Shown here: piece after piece, positions 64 to 6,347 of the stretch
Numbering within the stretch: position 1 is the stretch's first letter
Layout of the letters: each line of letters opens with the position of its first letter
NCBI GenBank assembly: GCA_013414745.1
Contig: CP058707.1
Coordinates: forward strand, 3,845,035-3,851,524
Direction: 5' to 3'
Source: Bacteroidota bacterium
Lineage (GTDB): Bacteria > Bacteroidota > Bacteroidia > Chitinophagales > Chitinophagaceae
Length of the DNA: 6,490 nucleotides
Made by a program: the position numbers and the translations under genes
The notes under the pieces: generated by a model
What the model was told of the DNA's origin: nothing
Seen by the model: only the letters and a program-made list of their open reading frames with translations
Database searches by the model: none

Positions 64-78
64 GGTTTTAAGCTGACC

Positions 79-207
79 GCTAACGTTCTGGGTATTGCCG
101 AAGGCGGGGTGGGATAGTAGTGATATTTTTAGGATAACTAAACACTAGGCATCAACAATATTTCAAAGATAAAACCAAAACCCCGCTTTTGGCAATACCA
201 TGTTGGC
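79..207 (-). other. attC-like recombination site 1 (type 1)
   Basis: Imperfect palindrome. The outer boxes are GCTAAC (79-84) and GTTGGC (202-207). The inner arms are GGTATTGCC (91-99) paired with GGCAATACC (191-199), and GCGGGG (104-109) paired with CCCCGC (181-186). The spacers between outer and inner boxes are unequal (6 versus 2 nt), as in the unpaired central spacer of attC hairpins. The interior is AT-rich. In gene orientation it closes non-coding cassette A, and the inferred crossover is next to C84. It shares its arms with sites 4 and 5. Confidence 0.72.
164..171 (-). promoter_or_regulatory. Possible Bacteroidetes -7 box inside attC site 1
   Basis: On the minus strand the sequence is TATCTTTG, matching the TAnnTTTG -7 consensus of Bacteroidetes. 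A TTG lies 21 nt upstream within the palindrome arm, close to the expected -33 spacing. It points toward the acetyltransferase start at 63. The same octamer recurs at the equivalent place in sites 4 and 5. No expression evidence is available. Confidence 0.35.
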
Positions 208-211
208 CATC

Positions 212-736
212 AGTGTGCTCATTTGGCGGTTTTCCTATCAGCTGTTTATAATTCTGTATTTAAAATCTAACCACAAAGCAAGGCGGGCGTAAGAAATTCG
301 TTAAGTGGCGCCTTCAATCCACATCTAAAGGCTTATAAATTCTCAGTTTGATATTCTTACGGTTAATGCCATGAAAGCGCCACGAGTTTCTTTTCAATAT
401 GGTTATTGATTTCAGGTTTATCAGTCAAAAAGCGCCGGTCCTCGATTTCTTCATATGTGGAATTCCCATTATGGTTTCAATTTTCGGTTTCTATTGGAAG
501 TCCAACCGGCGCGGAGTTGAGGAACGCCCACAATACATGGTAGAAAATTCAGGTTAGTGTCAAAACAGCGCCAAGCCAATCAGCATGTAATTCTTAAAGG
601 AACTGGTGATAAGTCCCAGGTAACCAATTTTGGCGCGGCGAAAGAGGTAAAAAACTGTCGGTTGGTCATTCTCTTGCCCGCCGATTTAAGGGTAGAAATC
701 ACCGCCAAATCTAAGCGTAATGGTGGTTCGCACATT
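212..736. ncRNA. Large structured non-coding element, copy A
   Basis: No convincing protein is encoded here. The region is a nested set of GC-rich stems. P1: TTTGGCGG (222-229) with CCGCCAAA (702-709). P2: GGCGGGC (282-288) with GCCCGCC (676-682). P3: GTGGCGC (305-311) with GCGCCAC (377-383). P4: GCGCCGGT (432-439) with ACCGGCGC (505-512). P5: GCGCCAA (568-574) with TTGGCGC (630-636), enclosing CTGG/CCAG around GATAAGTC. P3, P4 and P5 lie side by side inside P2, which lies inside P1: a multibranched layout. The outermost pairing is AGTGTGC (212-218) with GCACATT (730-736). P1 differs from copies B and C by a paired change (T-A here, C-G there). The transcribed strand is unresolved because wobble pairs point both ways; neighbouring genes are on the minus strand. 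A folded DNA function is possible. Confidence 0.68.
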
Positions 737-739
737 GTG

Positions 740-871
740 GCCAACGGTTATTGGCTTTGCGTTCGGTGTGGAATAGAAAGCACAAAAGTTCAAATTTAGT
801 ACAAAAGTTTATAGAAAGCTCAAATGTTCAGCCTCGCACAAAAGCCACACTGACGCAAAACCAATGTTAGC
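740..871 (-). other. attC-like recombination site 2
   Basis: Imperfect palindrome with outer boxes GCCAAC (740-745) and GTTAGC (866-871). Inner arms: ATTGG (750-754) with CCAAT (861-865), TTTGCG (756-761) with CGCAAA (854-859), and GTGTGG (766-771) with CCACAC (845-850). The outer boxes mismatch each other at one position, yet each matches the far end of its own cassette. In gene orientation it closes the cassette of the secreted 165-residue protein. The interior holds a possible promoter box at 791-798. Confidence 0.7.
791..798 (-). promoter_or_regulatory. Possible Bacteroidetes -7 box inside attC site 2
   Basis: The minus strand reads TAAATTTG, matching TAnnTTTG, with a TTTG 22 nt upstream as a possible -33 element (one base longer than usual). 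The same octamer sits at matching places in sites 7 and 9. It points into non-coding cassette A and could drive transcription of that element on the minus strand. Confidence 0.33.
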
Positions 872-877
872 TGCCGT

Positions 878-1374
878 TTATTTTCTAAATGATATCGTGA
901 AACAATAAGTTTCGATTTCATTACCGGTATCTTCCATTTTATTCTTAAACTTATTAAAGACTATTTTATATTTTCCATAAAGATAATGGGTTGCAAAATT
1001 ATCTGTATCTTCAGCAAATTCTCCCTCTTTGTAACGAGCTAATAACTGCTTTTTAAATCCGATATAATCTTTCGGGTTCTTGAAGAAATAAGTTACTACA
1101 TCTTCTAAGGCTAATAGCTTCTCTATCAAATCTATGATTTTCAAAAGTATAATTTCCTTTAATAAAATTCGACATAGAAACTGAATTTGAAGTTGTGTCC
1201 TTTTCTTTAGTAAAATCATTTTCAAACAAAAAATCAGATTGCTTTTCAATTGATTTAAGTGACAAAAGTTTTTCAAATTTTACTAATGTCAAAGATTGAG
1301 AGTAAGTCCTTTCGGAATACATAAAAACATGCAAACCAAAAGTATGAATTTAAAGTGTAATTTATTTTGTTCAT
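878..1374 (-). CDS. Secreted protein of unknown function, frameshifted
   Basis: I do not recognise the family. The gene reads from an ATG at 1374 to TAA at 878-880 but is broken by single-base indels. They lie near 1349-1351 and 1310-1312 (a base missing at each) and in the T4 run at 1138-1141 (one base extra). Restoring them gives 498 nt, an exact multiple of three, and a 165-residue protein. The N-terminus becomes a signal peptide with hydrophobic core FILLVCMFLCI and ends TYSQ, a typical export cleavage context. The mature part is lysine-rich and mostly alpha-helical in character (EIIDLIEKLLALEDVV), then KDYIGFKKQLLARYKEGEF, and ends CFTISFRK. The C-terminal 132-codon frame is open from 1276 to 878 without correction. 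The stop lies 6 bp from the attC outer box, as is usual for a cassette gene. Either sequencing error or true decay is possible. Confidence 0.6.
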
Positions 1375-1397
1375 TGTATTTCTTTTTTGTTTAAACT

Positions 1398-1405
1398 CAA
1401 ATTTA
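1398..1405 (-). promoter_or_regulatory. Possible promoter for the secreted-protein gene
   Basis: The minus strand reads TAAATTTG, a match to the Bacteroidetes -7 consensus TAnnTTTG. It lies 23 bp upstream of the ATG at 1374, which would give a leader of about 17 nt. No clear TTTG -33 element is visible. This cassette has the longest leader (about 105 bp) in the window, so an internal promoter is plausible. Confidence 0.35.
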
Positions 1406-1475
1406 CTTATTTATTTAATATTTTGTTGTTAGGCTGTCTTCTTTTAATCTTAATAATTGTCGATACGAAATGGCA

Positions 1476-1604
1476 GCTAACGGGGTTGCGCTTGGCGATG
1501 GTGGGGTTAGAAAGTACTGAAGTTGAAATTATTAATAAAGATAAAAGAAAGTACAAAAGTTCATCCAAGCGCAAAAGCCCCACTTGCGCCAAACGCATGT
1601 TGGC
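1476..1604 (-). other. attC-like recombination site 3 (type 2)
   Basis: Outer boxes are GCTAAC (1476-1481) and GTTGGC (1599-1604). Inner arms: TGCG (1487-1490) with CGCA (1594-1597), TTGGCG (1492-1497) with CGCCAA (1587-1592), and GTGGGG (1501-1506) with CCCCAC (1578-1583). The arms are nearly identical to those of sites 7 and 9, although those close unrelated cassettes. In gene orientation it closes the MORN/YwqK-like cassette. Confidence 0.72.
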
Positions 1605-1620
1605 GGTAGTTAACGTAAGA

Positions 1621-2602
1621 TTACCAATAATCTGTTACCCTAACAACTTTACCCTTTTCATAGTGATAAATTACTTGAATACTACCATTTTCATTGAATA
1701 CTTCCCAATCTCCGTTTCGCTGACCGTTGACGTAATTTCCAAATAGTCTTTTCACTTCTTTTTGATCATATTCAATATAATTTCCATTTCGTACACCATT
1801 CTTAAAGTGCGTTTTTGATTTTAGTACTCCAGATTCGTAATACTCTATTGCTTCACCATTACCATCTTTAATACTACCAGGGTCAAGATGATTTCGGATA
1901 TTGAATACAATAAAAGAGTGTTCCAGTACTTTCCATCATTATATTGTTCAATTTTCATCAATTTTCCATTAGAATAGAATTTCCGAATGGTTCCTGTTCC
2001 ATTTAGGAGATTTCCAATATCAATTGCGTTACCAAGAGAATCATATGCTCCGTATATTGTCCATGGCACATTTAATTTATTTATTCCATGTTCCTTAAGT
2101 TGACCATTGAAATGAAATTCAGAATAGTAACCTTCAAGAGTTGAATTAGAATAGGTCGTGATAGACATGATGTTACCATTCTCGAAATATTCAATTAGCT
2201 GACCACTGATTCCGGTGTAGTTTCCTCCTGTCTTAGGGAATTGATTTTCATAATAATCATGAACATATGGGTTCCTGATTGAATCAAAATAGTAACGTGA
2301 TCGCCATATTCGATTTCCTCTGAATTCTAGAGTCCAACCTACTTTTTGTCATTTTGAAAAAATCCAATCTCCTCTAATTCGCCATTGGTTTCATAAAACA
2401 AATATTCGCCATCCCTTTTGCCATTTACATAATTGAATTGGTTTTGTAATTTCCCATTAAACCAATATTCCTTCCAAACACCATTTTTAATTCCAAATTC
2501 ATTTATTTTATTGATTGTGTCAATACGGACTTCATATTTATTCTGTCCCTGAACCATTATTGTACTTATTAAAAGTATCAGGTTTATCGTGAATTTCTTC
2601 AT
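1621..2602 (-). CDS. Secreted MORN/YwqK-like repeat protein, frameshifted
   Basis: The ATG at 2602 begins a signal peptide (MKKFTINLILLISTIMVQGQ), and the gene ends at TAA 1621-1623. Two frame changes occur, at the T5 run 2343-2347 and at 1930-1932. Each is repaired by one extra A in the coding strand, both at the same context (AAAGTA, reading Lys-Val). The repaired gene is 984 nt, encoding 327 residues. The mature protein is a string of about 20-residue repeats of the form NGxxxGxWxxYxxNGxLxxxxxYxNG. Examples are GVWKEYWFNGKLQNQFNYVN, GEYLFYETNGELEEIGFFQN and GDWEVFNENGSIQVIYHYEK. These match the YwqK/MORN-2-type repeats common in Bacteroidetes exported proteins and in some antitoxin-like or immunity proteins. 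The exact role is unknown. The stop lies 16 bp from its attC and the start 33 bp after the core site, as in a cassette. Confidence 0.75.
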
Positions 2603-2630
2603 GATTTTTAATTGTGGATAGTTAATTACC

Positions 2631-2759
2631 GCCAACGTTCAGGGTATTGCCGAAGGCGGGGTGGGATAGTAGTTATATTTTTAGGAGAACTAAACACCAG
2701 GCATCAACAATATTTCAAAGATAAAACCAAAACCCCGCTTTTGGCAATACCATGTTGGC
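2631..2759 (-). other. attC-like recombination site 4 (type 1)
   Basis: Outer boxes are GCCAAC (2631-2636) and GTTGGC (2754-2759), which pair perfectly. Inner arms are GGTATTGCC (2643-2651) with GGCAATACC (2743-2751), followed by GCGGGG/CCCCGC. The spacers are unequal (6 versus 2 nt). It is nearly identical to sites 1 and 5 and, like them, closes a non-coding cassette (B). Confidence 0.72.
2716..2723 (-). promoter_or_regulatory. Possible Bacteroidetes -7 box inside attC site 4
   Basis: The minus strand reads TATCTTTG with a TTG 21 nt upstream in the palindrome arm. It faces the repeat-protein start at 2602, about 114 bp away. The position equals that in sites 1 and 5. Confidence 0.35.
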
Positions 2760-2763
2760 TGTT

Positions 2764-3288
2764 AGTGTGCATCTTGGCGGTTTTCCCATCAGCTGTTTAA
2801 AATCCTTCATTTAAAATCTTACCACAAAGCAAGGCGGGCGTAGGAATTTCGTTAAGTGGCGCTTCAAATTCACTGCGAAATTGTAAGATAATTCTTCAGT
2901 TGTTATTCTCACCGTTAATGCCATGAAAGCGCCACGAGTTTCATTTCTATTATGGAATTGAATACGGTTATCATTCAAACAGCGCCGGTCTCCGATTTCT
3001 TTAAATGTGGAATTCACATTTTGGTTTCAGTTATCGGTTTCTATGAGAAGTCAAACCGGCGCGGAGTTAAACAACGCCCACAAGACGTGGTAGTATATTC
3101 CGGTGAGTGTCAAAACTGCGCCAAGCCGATAAGCCTGTTTTTCTAAATGGGAACTGGTGATAAGTCCCTGGTAACCAATTTTGGCGCGGTGAAAGAGGTA
3201 AAAAACTGTCGGTTGGTCATTCTCTTGCCCGCCGATTTAAGGGTAGAAAATCACCGCCAAGTCTAAGCGTAATGGTTTTTCGCACATT
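2764..3288. ncRNA. Large structured non-coding element, copy B
   Basis: Same architecture as copy A. P1: CTTGGCGG (2773-2780) with CCGCCAAG (3254-3261). P2: GGCGGGC (2833-2839) with GCCCGCC (3227-3233). P3: GTGGCGC (2856-2862) with GCGCCAC (2929-2935). P4: GCGCCGGT (2982-2989) with ACCGGCGC (3055-3062). P5: GCGCCAA (3118-3124) with TTGGCGC (3181-3187), again enclosing GATAAGTC. The outer pairing is AGTGTGC (2764-2770) with GCACATT (3282-3288). Loop sequences differ from copies A and C while the stems are kept. The short frames visible on either strand are not shared by the other copies, which argues against a protein. Confidence 0.68.
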
Positions 3289-3291
3289 ACA

Positions 3292-3419
3292 GCCAACGTT
3301 CCGGGTATTGCCGAAGGCGGGGTGGGATAGTAGTTATATTTTAGGAGAACTAAACACCAAGCTTTAACAATATTTCAAAGATAAAACCAAAACCCCGCTT
3401 TTGGCAATACCATGTTGGC
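3292..3419 (-). other. attC-like recombination site 5 (type 1)
   Basis: Outer boxes are GCCAAC (3292-3297) and GTTGGC (3414-3419). Inner arms are GGTATTGCC (3304-3312) with GGCAATACC (3403-3411), followed by GCGGGG/CCCCGC. It is the same type as sites 1 and 4, and in gene orientation closes non-coding cassette C. It also forms the junction between tandem cassettes B and C. Confidence 0.72.
3376..3383 (-). promoter_or_regulatory. Possible Bacteroidetes -7 box inside attC site 5
   Basis: TATCTTTG on the minus strand, in the same position and context as in sites 1 and 4. It would transcribe into non-coding cassette B. Confidence 0.33.
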
Positions 3420-3423
3420 TGTT

Positions 3424-3948
3424 AGTGTGCTTCTTGGCGGTTTTCCCAATAGCTGTTTATAATCCTTCGTTTAAAATCTAACCACAAAGCAAGGCGGGCG
3501 TAGAATATTTGTTAAGTGGCGCCTTCGATCCACAACAAAATGGCATGGAAATTTTCCGTTTGAAATTCTCACGGTTAATGCCATGAAGGCGCCACTAGTT
3601 TTATTTCAATGAGGGTAATGATTTCAGGTATATCATTCAAACAGCGCCGGTCTTCAATTTCTTTAGATTTGGAATTCCCATTTTGGTTTCGGTTTTCGGT
3701 TTCTAGTGGTAGTCCAACCGGCGCGGAGTTGAGAAACGCCCACAAGACAAGGTAGAAAATTCCGGTTAGTGTCAAAACAGCGCCAAGGAATTAGCATTTA
3801 TTTCTAAATTAGAACTGGTGATAAGTCTTCGGTAACCAATTTTGGCGCGGTGAAAGTGGTAAAAACTGTCAGTTGGTCATTCTCTTGCCCGCCGATTTAA
3901 GAGTAGAAAATCACCGCCAAGTCTAAGCGTAATGGTGGTTCGCACATT
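3424..3948. ncRNA. Large structured non-coding element, copy C
   Basis: Same architecture as A and B. P1: CTTGGCGG (3433-3440) with CCGCCAAG (3914-3921). P2: GGCGGGC (3493-3499) with GCCCGCC (3887-3893). P3 is longest here: GTGGCGCCTTC (3516-3526) with GAAGGCGCCAC (3585-3595), 11 perfect pairs. P4: GCGCCGGT (3644-3651) with ACCGGCGC (3717-3724). P5: GCGCCAA (3780-3786) with TTGGCGC (3842-3848), around GATAAGTC. A GGGCG/CGCCC pairing between 3496-3500 and the segment near 3734 competes with P2, so an alternative fold is possible. No protein is supported. Confidence 0.68.
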
Positions 3949-3951
3949 ACA

Positions 3952-4083
3952 GCCAACGGTTTACGTATTGGCGATGGTGGGGCATTTGAAATACTTCAGC
4001 CCAACATTTGCACAAATGCCCAATAGAGTTGCAATTGTTGAGTTTACAACTGCCAGCCCCACTATTGCCAATACGATGTTGTG
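3952..4083 (-). other. attC-like recombination site 6
   Basis: Outer boxes are GCCAAC (3952-3957) and GTTGTG (4078-4083). They pair poorly with each other but match the far ends of their own cassettes. Inner arms: CGTATTGGC (3964-3972) with GCCAATACG (4067-4075), and GTGGGG (3977-3982) with CCCCAC (4057-4062). It lacks the TAnnTTTG octamers seen in most other sites. It closes the metallopeptidase cassette, whose repaired reading frame stops inside the site. Confidence 0.7.
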
Positions 4084-4842
4084 CGTTCGCTTTTGTTCTT
4101 TTCATACCATTCCATCATTTCTTGTCTAACAGTTTGTTGGTTTGTCGTGTCTGCAAGAAATTGTTTGTAAGTCATTTTTTGATATCAATACAATACTGAA
4201 CTAATGTCCAATAGTCGTAATACTCTTTTGGTGCGATTGTACTGTCACTAAATATTACTTCCCAATTATTTTTCTGTCGCAATGAGTCGTTCTATATTTT
4301 TGAAAGGTCTTTCTGATCTGTGTTTTGTCGGGAAACATATTCTGCATAACCTTCCCATTTCCAATTAGGGATATTAGCAATAGGTTTTGATTTCCAAAAT
4401 CCTAATTTGTCAAACTGCAAACAATGTGTCATTTCGTGTGCTAAAAGTTGAGTCAAGTTCCATTTGTAGCCATTTAGTTCAACATAATTTTCATTATAGT
4501 TGGCATTTCCTTGCAGAACAACTTTATTATAGAAGCCCCACGCAAAGGCTTGTCCTCGTATAGCTCGTATAAGTTTTGGATATTTTGAGCCGTCATTCAG
4601 ACAAATGTCAAGGTGTAGGTCTGGATTGTAAAGTTCACTTGCTTTTAAAAGTTCGGTCGCTTGGTCAAGCTTAGTTAACAATGTCGGGTCAAGTGTTTTA
4701 TTATGAAAAACGGTAAGGTTGTTATGTGTCGTTTTGTTGGCGTAAGTCAAAATTGGATTAATAACAATAATTAGCAAAAGTCCTGTAATAAGCATAGCAG
4801 TAGCTGTAAACCGAAGTGTCCATTTTTTATTTGTCGTTTCAT
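4062..4842 (-). CDS. Membrane-anchored gluzincin-type zinc metallopeptidase, frameshifted
   Basis: The uncorrected open frame runs from ATG 4795 to TAG 4292-4294 (167 residues). It has an N-terminal hydrophobic segment (LITGLLLIIVINPILTY), HExxH (HEMTH, residues 120-124) and PNWKWEGYAEY with E148. HExxH plus a downstream EGxAEY glutamate is the zinc-ligand pattern of gluzincin peptidases (MA clan). The catalytic domain therefore probably faces the periplasm or outside; the substrate is unknown. The gene appears longer. Adding one A near the start allows an ATG at 4842 and a basic leader (NKKWTLRF) before the membrane segment. At the other end, compensating changes in A runs at 4297-4301 and 4269-4273 remove the TAG. 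One more at 4175-4180 joins MTYKQFLADTTNQQ, ending at TAG 4062-4064 inside attC site 6. Repaired length is 783 nt, 260 residues. The peptidase call is firm; the extensions are inference. Confidence 0.75.
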
Positions 4843-4866
4843 ACGCAATGTCTGTTTAAAGTGACG

Positions 4867-4997
4867 CACAACGTGGTTGCGCTTGGCGAAGGTGGGGGTT
4901 AAAAAGCACTTAAGTTCAAATTTATAATCAAAGATAATAGAAAGTACAAATGTTTAGTCTAGCACATAAGCCCCACTTGCGCCAAACGCATGTTGGT
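4867..4997 (-). other. attC-like recombination site 7 (type 2)
   Basis: Outer boxes are CACAAC (4867-4872) and GTTGGT (4992-4997). Inner arms: TGCGC (4878-4882) then TTGGCG (4883-4888), with CGCCAA (4980-4985) then CGCA (4987-4990), and GTGGGG with CCCCAC. It is the same type as sites 3 and 9 and closes the cassette of the unknown 209-residue protein. Confidence 0.7.
4917..4936 (-). promoter_or_regulatory. Two possible -7 boxes inside attC site 7
   Basis: The minus strand carries TATCTTTG (4929-4936) and TAAATTTG (4917-4924), both matching TAnnTTTG. A TTTG lies 22 nt upstream of the second. They face the metallopeptidase start at 4842 or 4795, about 75-120 bp away. Confidence 0.35.
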
Positions 4998-5004
4998 GGC
5001 AGTT

Positions 5005-5633
5005 TTATTTCTTTAAATAGTCCATCTTTTCAAATAGACTCTCAATTATTCTGGTTTGATTCGGTCTTATGCTTTTATCAAACGAGAAGAAAATCATTGA
5101 AGAATCAAATGTCAGAATTATATCGTTTAGTTTTTCAAGTTTTTAACTAGATGTTCGTTTAAAAAATGTTCTAATTCTTGCTTTCTGTTTGTATTAATTT
5201 TGAATTTGTCATTAAATGTTTTGAAGTTCTTTACCTCAATGTCTTTAATCCAAAACTTTTTTAAAATTTTATCCGATTTCGTTTCTAAGCAAATTATTGT
5301 GTTTCCCAAATCCAATGTTGTTTCTGTAAATCCTATAATATAAAAATCATATTCTCTATGTCCTACCTGCCCATTCTTATTTGACATTGGATAAAATTTA
5401 TCTAATAGAATCTGAGCAACATATAATTTACCATTACTTTTTCTAGTTTGAAAAGGTTTTGTATATGCAAAGAATAATTATGGCTAATATTAATTCTGTT
5501 TTTATTAGGTCCAGAAAAAATCACATTCATTTTTTTCAACCAGTTCAATTATAGCTTTCTCTTTAAAGGAATCAAATGAACTTTGAAGAATCTTTTCATC
5601 GTCCTCATCAAATGCAAATAAATTGAGTTTCAT
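5005..5633 (-). CDS. Conserved-looking protein of unknown function, frameshifted
   Basis: I do not recognise the family. The gene starts at ATG 5633 (MKLNLFAFDEDDEKILQSSF) and ends at TAA 5005-5007. Three single-base indels break it: one extra base in the T7 run 5530-5536, one missing near 5476-5477, and one missing in the T5 run 5131-5135. Repair gives 630 nt, a 209-residue protein with no signal peptide or membrane segment, so it is likely cytoplasmic. An internal open stretch, uncorrected, runs from 5387 to 5127 and includes HREYDFYIIGF, TTLDLGNTIICLETKSDK and KQELEHFLNEHL. The C-terminus reads LTFDSSMIFFSFDKS and ends FEKMDYLKK. Charged, strand-rich segments suggest an alpha/beta fold. 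The stop lies 7 bp from the attC outer box and the start 52 bp after the core site, which fits a cassette gene. Confidence 0.65.
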
Positions 5634-5680
5634 ATTTTATTTGAAGTACATTACGTTAATATAAGTCAATAAAAATTGCC

Positions 5681-5773
5681 ACCAACGGTTCGCAGCTTTG
5701 CGCTGGGCGGGCATTTGGAACCTGAAATTGACAATGAAAAAGTGATCCCGCCTTGCGCAAAACTGTTGTTACA
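5681..5773 (-). other. attC-like recombination site 8 (short form)
   Basis: The shortest site, about 93 bp. Outer boxes are ACCAAC (5681-5686) and GTTACA (5768-5773), which barely pair with each other. Inner arms are TTTGCGC (5697-5703) with GCGCAAA (5755-5761), and GGCGGG (5706-5711) with CCCGCC (5747-5752). The interior loop is short and has no promoter-like octamer. It closes non-coding cassette D, whose far end (GCCTGTAAC, 6207-6215) is the perfect complement of GTTACAGGC (5768-5776). Confidence 0.65.
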
Positions 5774-5776
5774 GGC

Positions 5777-6206
5777 TCGTGCTTGGTTTAAAAATGGCGG
5801 GATTCCTTGGTCCTGTTTCATGGTTTTCAATCCAAATATAGTAAAAAAGCGAGGCAGGCCAATCTGGATTCTGTTTGCAGCGCTTTCCAACTAATTATTT
5901 TGAGTCACGTTTATCATCCGTGTAAAGTTTTGTTCTTAAAATCTTCGAAGCGCTGCGTTTATTTTTTCGAGATGAGTAGCAAATTGTCCGTAAAACTAAA
6001 CTGAGCGCCCTGGTCTTAAGTCTACGGAAATCGTATGTGGTTTTCATATTCTAATACGCCAGCTCATCATCTATGAAATACGATAGGGCGCGAGTAGAGG
6101 AACGCCAAAGTCACGGTTAAAATCTCCAATGCCTGCCGGATTTAAGTCTACGGATAACCGCCATTTTTTTGTCTGTATTCTCTCGGTAATTCTTAGCCCA
6201 CGCATG
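5777..6206. ncRNA. Large structured non-coding element, divergent copy D
   Basis: A diverged relative of copies A-C with the same order of stems but different stem sequences. P1: AAAAATGGCGG (5790-5800) with CCGCCATTTTT (6158-6168). P2: GGCAGGC (5853-5859) with GCCTGCC (6131-6137). P3: GCAGCGCTT (5877-5885) with AAGCGCTGC (5948-5956). P4: GCGCCCT (6005-6011) with AGGGCGC (6085-6091). The arm P5 of A-C is absent. Conserved unpaired motifs remain, including GAGGAACGCC just after P4 and GATTTAAG between P2 and P1. Because both halves of P1-P4 changed together relative to A-C, this copy is the best evidence for a selected fold. No protein is supported here. The strand is unresolved. Confidence 0.62.
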
Positions 6207-6209
6207 GCC

Positions 6210-6339
6210 TGTAACGTGGTTGCGCTTGGCGAAGGTGGGGTTAAAAAGTACTCCAGTTCAAATTTAGAATCAAAGATAATTGAAAGTACAATTGCTCAAG
6301 CTAGCACAGAAGCCCCACTTGCGCCAAACGCATGTTGTG
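6210..6339 (-). other. attC-like recombination site 9 (type 2)
   Basis: Outer boxes are TGTAAC (6210-6215) and GTTGTG (6334-6339). Inner arms: TGCGC (6221-6225) then TTGGCG (6226-6231), with CGCCAA (6322-6327) then CGCA (6329-6332), and GTGGGG with CCCCAC. It is the same type as sites 3 and 7. In gene orientation it closes the VapC cassette. Confidence 0.7.
6259..6278 (-). promoter_or_regulatory. Two possible -7 boxes inside attC site 9
   Basis: TATCTTTG (6271-6278) and TAAATTTG (6259-6266) on the minus strand, arranged as in site 7. They point into non-coding cassette D, so they are candidates for driving that element on the minus strand. Confidence 0.33.
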
Positions 6340-6347
6340 CGTTCGTG

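Follow-up and report, generated by a model that had tools for sequence, protein, structure and literature searches.

Integron cassettes that contain no gene are commonly left without an explanation or taken to supply promoters, and we describe here a set of them that share an elaborate layout of paired stems. The window analyzed, a stretch of 6490 nt (contig positions 3845035-3851524) in a one-contig Bacteroidota genome of 4.27 Mb, carries four such cassettes, A to D. Like these, the gene-less cassettes of Vibrio and Treponema are bounded by attC sites and lack an open reading frame (ORF), and the Vibrio ones also lie in a large array (PMC11014356, PMC6557892). These two accounts describe the ORF-less cassettes as promoter carriers, whereas here a single fold extends over four sequence types and at least 89 copies. 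The attC sites themselves form single-strand hairpins, and it is their bottom strand that the integrase uses (PMC11023631); the present element, by contrast, lies between attC sites as the cassette body, is 3-4 times longer than they are and has several arms. Large, multi-branched and non-coding architectures are also known from the GOLLD, ROOL and OLE RNAs, the first two of which are encoded in phages or prophages (PMC12286853). Unlike these, the present element has no Rfam match, resides in integron-like cassettes in tens of copies and is not necessarily an RNA. A further likeness is to non-autonomous elements of the miniature inverted-repeat transposable element type, which are short, gene-less, present in many copies and presumably moved in trans; in the present case, however, the ends are attC-type AACG junctions and the internal stems are constrained.

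A stem layout common to four types of gene-less cassette

In the 660 kb studied around the window (3.38-4.04 Mb), blastn with cassettes A-D recovered 84 copies, every one on the plus strand and within the array. Type 1, to which A, B and C belong, accounts for 56 of these (pairwise identity 78-100%), type 2, that of D, for 25 (90-100%), and type 3, with about 67-68% identity to D, for the other 3. Five copies of a fourth type, of about 510 nt and spanning 3560879-3621363, were found among the cassettes without a long ORF, which brings the total to at least 89 gene-less copies, about a quarter of the cassettes in the array. On clustering of the bodies, type 1 and types 2+3 emerged as the largest cassette families, with 52 and 27 members, the next having 7, 6 and 4. 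A protein-coding reading of the structured cassettes was ruled out: the largest set of ORFs with a common stop (at least 35 amino acids) took in 27 of 56 type-1 copies and 7 of 25 type-2 copies, both on the minus strand, and 1 of 5 type-4 copies.

The four types have different sequences but one layout, in which stem P1, near both ends, is followed by P2, with the arms P3 and P4 inside P2. The P1 arms are TTTGGCGG/CCGCCAAA in type 1, AATGGCGG/CCGCCATT in type 2, AATGGCGTT/AACGCCATT in type 3 and CGGTTTGGTTGGCTT/AAGCCAACCAAAYCG in type 4. Those of P2 are GGCGGGC, GGCAGGC, GGCAGGC and GGCAAGC in types 1-4, and those of P3 are GTGGCGC, GCAGCGCTT, GCAGCGC and CGCTCCCG, each with its complement. P4 is formed by GCGCCGGT/ACCGGCGC in type 1, GCGCCCT/AGGGCGC in type 2, GCGCC/GGCGC in type 3 and GCGCCC/GGGCGC in type 4. 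In the window the stems and one conserved motif, none of them assigned to a strand, are placed as follows:

2773..2780 with 3254..3261, P1 of B (CTTGGCGG), found only rarely outside structured cassettes; homologues in A (222-229/702-709), C (3433-3440/3914-3921) and D (5793-5800/6158-6165)
2833..2839 with 3227..3233, P2 of B (GGCGGGC); in D, GGCAGGC at 5853-5859 with 6131-6137
2856..2862 with 2929..2935, P3 of B; in D, 5877-5885 with 5948-5956
2982..2989 with 3055..3062, P4 of B; in D, 6005-6011 with 6085-6091
3064..3078, motif M3 of B beside P4 (GAGTTGAGGAACGCC-like), common to types 1-3; in D, 6092-6106
3118..3124 with 3181..3187, P5 of B, a stem of type 1 only, with 392 of 392 cells Watson-Crick

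Three lines of evidence speak for a fold: pairing that is conserved from type to type, substitution rates and the comparison with control cassettes. Energy is no part of the case. Of the ungapped P1-P5 cells in types 1 and 2, 98-100% are Watson-Crick, except in P4 (433/448 and 170/175). Between the type-1 and type-2 consensus sequences 7 of 29 stem pairs differ (8 pairs compared in P1 and 7 each in P2, P3 and P4, matched manually according to position in the layout and counted by hand), and in all 7 both partners have changed so that a different Watson-Crick pair results; P2 shows a third state, GGCAAGC/GCTTGCC, in type 4. Among bodies of 300-1300 nt, P1 is present in 80 of 86 structured ones as against 2 of 171 others, the corresponding figures for shuffles of the same bodies being 15/86 and 13/171. 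Stem columns also vary less than the rest, 6.3 times less in type 1 (0.0157 versus 0.0995, p 8e-14) and 2.7 times less in type 2 (0.0175 versus 0.0471, p 0.014). The first-pass annotation of the window had proposed a large structured element that is carried as a cassette and whose stems show compensating changes, and the four types, the 171-cassette control and the stem and loop rates bear this out. Its four gene-less cassettes and the stem arms it named lie where it had placed them, with no conserved frame in types 1, 2 and 4; the outer limits it gave, 84 and 6214, fall on AACG unit boundaries; and the paired changes it had noticed between copies reappear, by our hand count, as the 7 of 7 compensated pairs, now in a setting of four types.

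Sequence kinship among types 1-3 was traced with R1, a model of the P4+M3 region of types 2 and 3. Within the 660 kb it recovers all 28 type-2/3 copies and 48 of the 56 type-1 copies at the matching place (expectation value, E, 0.001 to 0.7), and up to E 1 it finds no match outside the copies. A descriptor combining P2 and P4 gives 95 matches on the plus strand and none on the minus strand of this region; 77 lie within structured bodies, and in the remaining 18 a GGCGGGC just upstream of the body is paired with the type-2 GCCTGCC via G.T. It is the layout, together with portions of P2 and P4, and not overall similarity, that places type 4 with the others, and on this ground we infer that it has a common origin with types 1-3. 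Its consensus, from five sequences, has a folding energy of -114 on the plus strand and -98 on the minus strand; compensating double changes occur in 15 of 126 pairs on plus and 11 of 124 on minus, and 32 and 37 pairs, respectively, are broken in at least one copy. Type 4 also has a 15-bp closing stem, and its energy z-scores reach down to -8.

Within-type covariation and energy z-scores were set aside as proof of the fold, the former not being significant and the latter extreme only in type 4. The z-scores, computed on single sequences with 40 shuffles each for 6, 5, 3 and 5 copies of types 1-4, have plus/minus means of -0.5/-2.3, -2.2/-1.3, -1.3/-1.9 and -6.2/-4.9, and those of eight other cassettes average -1.4/-0.4. 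Cassette B alone scores -2.3 on plus and -2.6 on minus.

The array and the apparent mobility of its units

Nine attC-like repeats, each with an outer R box (..CAAC / GTTG..), an inner stem and a variable loop, punctuate the window, and a covariance model built from them (R2) confines the plus-strand sites of the 660 kb to 3,475,211-3,982,500, an array of about 507 kb. An nhmmer profile counts 330 attC-like sites on the plus strand and 6 weaker ones on the minus strand, and the minus-strand R2 matches fall mostly on the same palindromes as plus-strand sites, with lower scores. At 507 kb and 330 sites, the array is very large among integron-like systems. The 330 one-strand sites and the AACG junctions give the units the features of integron cassettes, namely attC boundaries, a fixed junction and a single orientation. 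Outside types 1-4 there are 241 bodies, 211 of which have an ATG-initiated ORF of at least 80 amino acids, the longest one being on the minus strand in 203 cases; hence the array reads on minus, and the plus strand corresponds to the attC bottom strand. The sites, all from the attC repeat analysis, and the structured units of the window are:

76..208, minus strand, attC-like site 1
84..744, minus strand (gene direction), unit A, type 1: attC-like site plus gene-less structured body 205-744, with AACG boundaries from extension of near-identical pairs
739..872, minus strand, attC-like site 2
1475..1605, minus strand, attC-like site 3
2630..2760, minus strand, attC-like site 4
2636..3296, minus strand, unit B, type 1, with a 99.6% copy at genome position 3576296
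3291..3420, minus strand, attC-like site 5
3297..3956, minus strand, unit C, type 1, with a 99.6% copy at genome position 3573946
3951..4084, minus strand, attC-like site 6
4866..4998, minus strand, attC-like site 7
5680..5774, minus strand, attC-like site 8, short, belonging to the type-2 unit D
5686..6214, minus strand, unit D, one of the 25 type-2 copies
6209..6340, minus strand, attC-like site 9

Structured bodies with at least 98% identity share neither neighbour in 35 of 39 pairs, and those with at least 99% in 16 of 19. In 14 of these 16 pairs the ends were examined, and in 12 the identity stops at, or at most 10 nt from, AACG on both sides, while in the other 2 the alignment ran past it; the shared units of the 12 measure 665-674 nt in type 1 and 535 nt in type 2, junction bases counted. 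The copies thus behave as mobile units, the near-identical ones mostly standing in different surroundings and having roughly one AACG-to-AACG unit in common. Site-specific recombination at the attC-like sites is the probable means of movement. Adjacent structured bodies were observed 27 times, the random expectation being 23.2 (standard deviation 3.6).

A terminal pairing, P0 (GTTGGC..GTGTGC / GCACA..GCCAAC), was considered as part of the element and rejected because cassettes in general have it: the two ends of the same cassette pair well beyond the 6-nt R-box core in 216 of 232 non-structured ones, versus 75 of 232 with swapped partners. In structured cassettes the own ends pair in 82 of 86 cases versus 62 of 86 with swapped partners. 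Such pairing of a cassette's own ends looks as if a circular single-stranded form were selected.

An Xer-like tyrosine recombinase without the IntI-specific insert is encoded at 3985783-3986898, 3.3 kb past the last attC-like site of the array. The organism-named entries among the 120 relatives listed for it are metagenome-assembled genomes of Bacteroidetes/Bacteroidia, Chryseobacterium, Flavobacterium, Lacibacter and Runella, all Bacteroidota. Five regions of other genera, which had been chosen for a nearby recombinase match, encode homologues (37-47% identity) at a distance of 0.8 to 3.1 kb from an attC-like site, whereas none was present in 15 regions selected on attC only. Four of the five homologues sit at the same end of the array as the present one and face it; the fifth (L249, a 246-residue frame) faces away. 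The canonical IntI model TIGR02249 gives nine matches in this genome, none above cut-off, and the best pair of matches skips model positions 178-240. As no IntI with the IntI-specific insert was found in the genome, we term the array integron-like. It seems likely that the Xer-like recombinase at its end, or one acting in trans, moves the units. Such attC-like sites occur in 57 of 99 genomes searched, our own included, and in 10 of 13 congeners; a canonical IntI above cut-off was detected in 1 of 119 genomes of relatives, and that genome has no such attC-like sites. IntegronFinder 2.0 is accompanied by the statement that only In0 elements had earlier been seen in Bacteroidetes, to which it adds one complete integron, from Salinibacter ruber (PMC9024848), and a word search of the main text of the attC-source paper (PMC8352920) finds no 'Bacteroid-'.

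Possible roles of the fold

The reading that we tentatively prefer is that of a non-coding mobile cassette whose fold acts in cis as single-stranded DNA, on the attC bottom strand, and promotes its own excision and re-insertion. The folded body would bring both flanking attC hairpins close to each other, or would keep the excised strand ready for recombination, and intact folds would leave more copies. What counts for it is copy number, with 56, 25, 3 and 5 copies of types 1-4 versus 7, 6 and 4 bodies in the next families, and, besides, the different neighbours of near-identical copies, the contrast in P1 with other cassettes and the low variation of the stems. Wobble columns show a slight lean to the plus strand, that is, to the attC bottom strand opposite the cassette genes, with G.T in 19 versus A.C in 7 when read on plus (p 0.014 in a sign test that ignores descent). 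The ratio of stem to other substitutions is 0.10 on internal versus 0.23 on terminal branches in type 1 (p 0.06) and 0.07 versus 0.38 in type 2 (p 0.13); a lower internal ratio is to be expected if an intact fold favours the multiplication of a copy. We are more doubtful of the specific form of this idea, a selfish class of non-coding integron cassettes in which the whole body, as a folded single strand, drives its own recombination and has thereby come to make up a quarter of an array run by an Xer-like recombinase and not by IntI.

A number of observations weigh against action as single-stranded DNA: 1) We know of no integron fold of such size acting in this form. 2) Without P0 the wobble columns number 11 versus 5. 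3) Energy z-scores favour neither strand, types 1 and 3 lying further below shuffles on minus and types 2 and 4 on plus. 4) The difference between internal and terminal branches is not significant in either type, and any purifying selection gives the same. 5) Other cassettes are equally free, 32 of 38 pairs with at least 99% identity having neither neighbour in common, so that the fold is unneeded for movement, and it is copy number, not movement, that is special. As regards the fold itself, the energy z-scores of types 1-3 are close to those of other cassettes, only type 4 being extreme, and when types 1 and 2 were each tested for covariation in the manner of R-scape, no stem pair came out at E<0.05; the only pair below this value, 379-384 in type 2, is not a base pair, and the P0 positions 11-544, 12-543 and 14-542 vary together, yet none at E<0.05. 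A covariation test of this kind had been proposed in the first-pass annotation, and its claim of selection on a fold is accordingly upheld by the pairing across types, the stem rates and the 171-cassette control, and not by covariation within types.

That the bodies are instead transcribed as a large structured non-coding RNA, with loop motifs by P2 and P4, which acts in trans or protects the array, rather as other ornate RNAs of mobile elements do, is nearly as probable. Their length of about 410-525 nt and multi-branch layout would suit such an RNA, as would the motifs conserved outside the stems in types 1-3, by which R1 recovers most type-1 copies, and the folding of all five type-4 copies at 5 to 8 standard deviations below shuffles on plus. 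It is disfavoured by the lean of the wobble pairs to the strand opposite the cassette genes, by the lack of an Rfam relative and by the finding of no full promoter of the Bacteroidota consensus on either strand of the four type consensus sequences. A bare -7-like TAnnTTTG does occur on the minus strand in all four and on the plus strand in none, and this would fit a promoter or regulatory cassette that drives or insulates the transcription of its neighbours, as in Vibrio and Treponema, where promoter activity is reported for most of 29 gene-less Vibrio cassettes (PMC11014356) and for ORF-less Treponema cassettes (PMC6557892). The motif, however, stands at different positions in different types and has no -33 partner, and a promoter does not require a multi-stem fold conserved across four types, so that we regard this explanation as improbable. 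Least probable of all, in our view, is an old hitch-hiking repeat without function, its palindromes kept by gene conversion or made by assembly errors. Many copies in a single genome would allow gene conversion, all copies come from a single one of the genomes searched, N are scattered through the assembly and other cassettes are just as mobile; nevertheless, type-1 copies differ by up to 22% with their stems still paired, four unlike sequence types keep one layout, and assembly errors do not create paired changes.

Should the fold drive copying, integron cassettes would have selfish non-coding parasites of their own; should it act as an RNA, integrons would be home to a new family of large RNAs, with tens of copies in a genome. 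The genome in either case also shows an integron-like array without canonical IntI.

Searches for relatives and the other genes of the window

The structured bodies of types 1, 2, 3 and 4 have no match among the 4227 families of Rfam, in agreement with the first-pass annotation, which could tie its four cassettes to no named large RNA; OLE, GOLLD, ROOL and HEARO are all in Rfam. Seven sub-threshold Rfam matches were obtained in the window, six on attC hairpins and one at 4755-4800. A group II ribozyme core, as in group IIC-attC introns, likewise has no Rfam match in the bodies, and the units end at AACG with their own attC.

Searches in other genomes returned matches that we take as chance: for type 1, a single 38-nt match in one of 98 other relatives' genomes, and for type 4, matches of 25-36 nt in 4 of 243 other genomes of the family (E 1e-4 to 1e-3). 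R1 found the element in its own genome only, among 294 genomes of the family and 396 of the order (overlapping samples), with stricter filters and 10-13 candidates scored per genome; given these settings and the poor performance of R1 on type 1, distant relatives may have escaped detection. The stretches between neighbouring attC-like sites were also examined in 35 loci of relatives and contained no gene-less body (250-1200 nt), the two found being our own type-4 copies. No match was obtained by blastn in plasmids (types 1 and 4) or phages (types 1 and 2), nor in viral contigs with three exact patterns (types 2/3, 4 and 1). A loose M3 pattern gave 19 stretches in viral contigs, of which six were matched by R1 at E up to 10, the best at E 0.009 over 34 nt, again taken as chance. 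In genome contigs a pattern that proved too loose gave at least 109 stretches; among the 80 listed (median GC content 0.67), R1 gives three at E 0.11 to 0.33, and these 80 look like chance, so that the scan says little. Between the four consensus sequences and these 80 plus the 19 viral loci, blastn found one 21-nt match, in the viral locus L089. A full-text literature search, seen as titles and abstract openings and with most subscription journals outside its coverage, returned no description of this element.

The 660 kb contain 1594 N, scattered and in some cases inside genes. The cassette genes of the window lie on the minus strand at 878-1276, 1845-2635, 4292-4795 and 5127-5387, and some of them may be frame-shifted. 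One is without a Pfam match; the Pfam matches comprise a sub-threshold match to a metallopeptidase-like domain, another to DUF3137, and two pieces of MORN_2 repeats.

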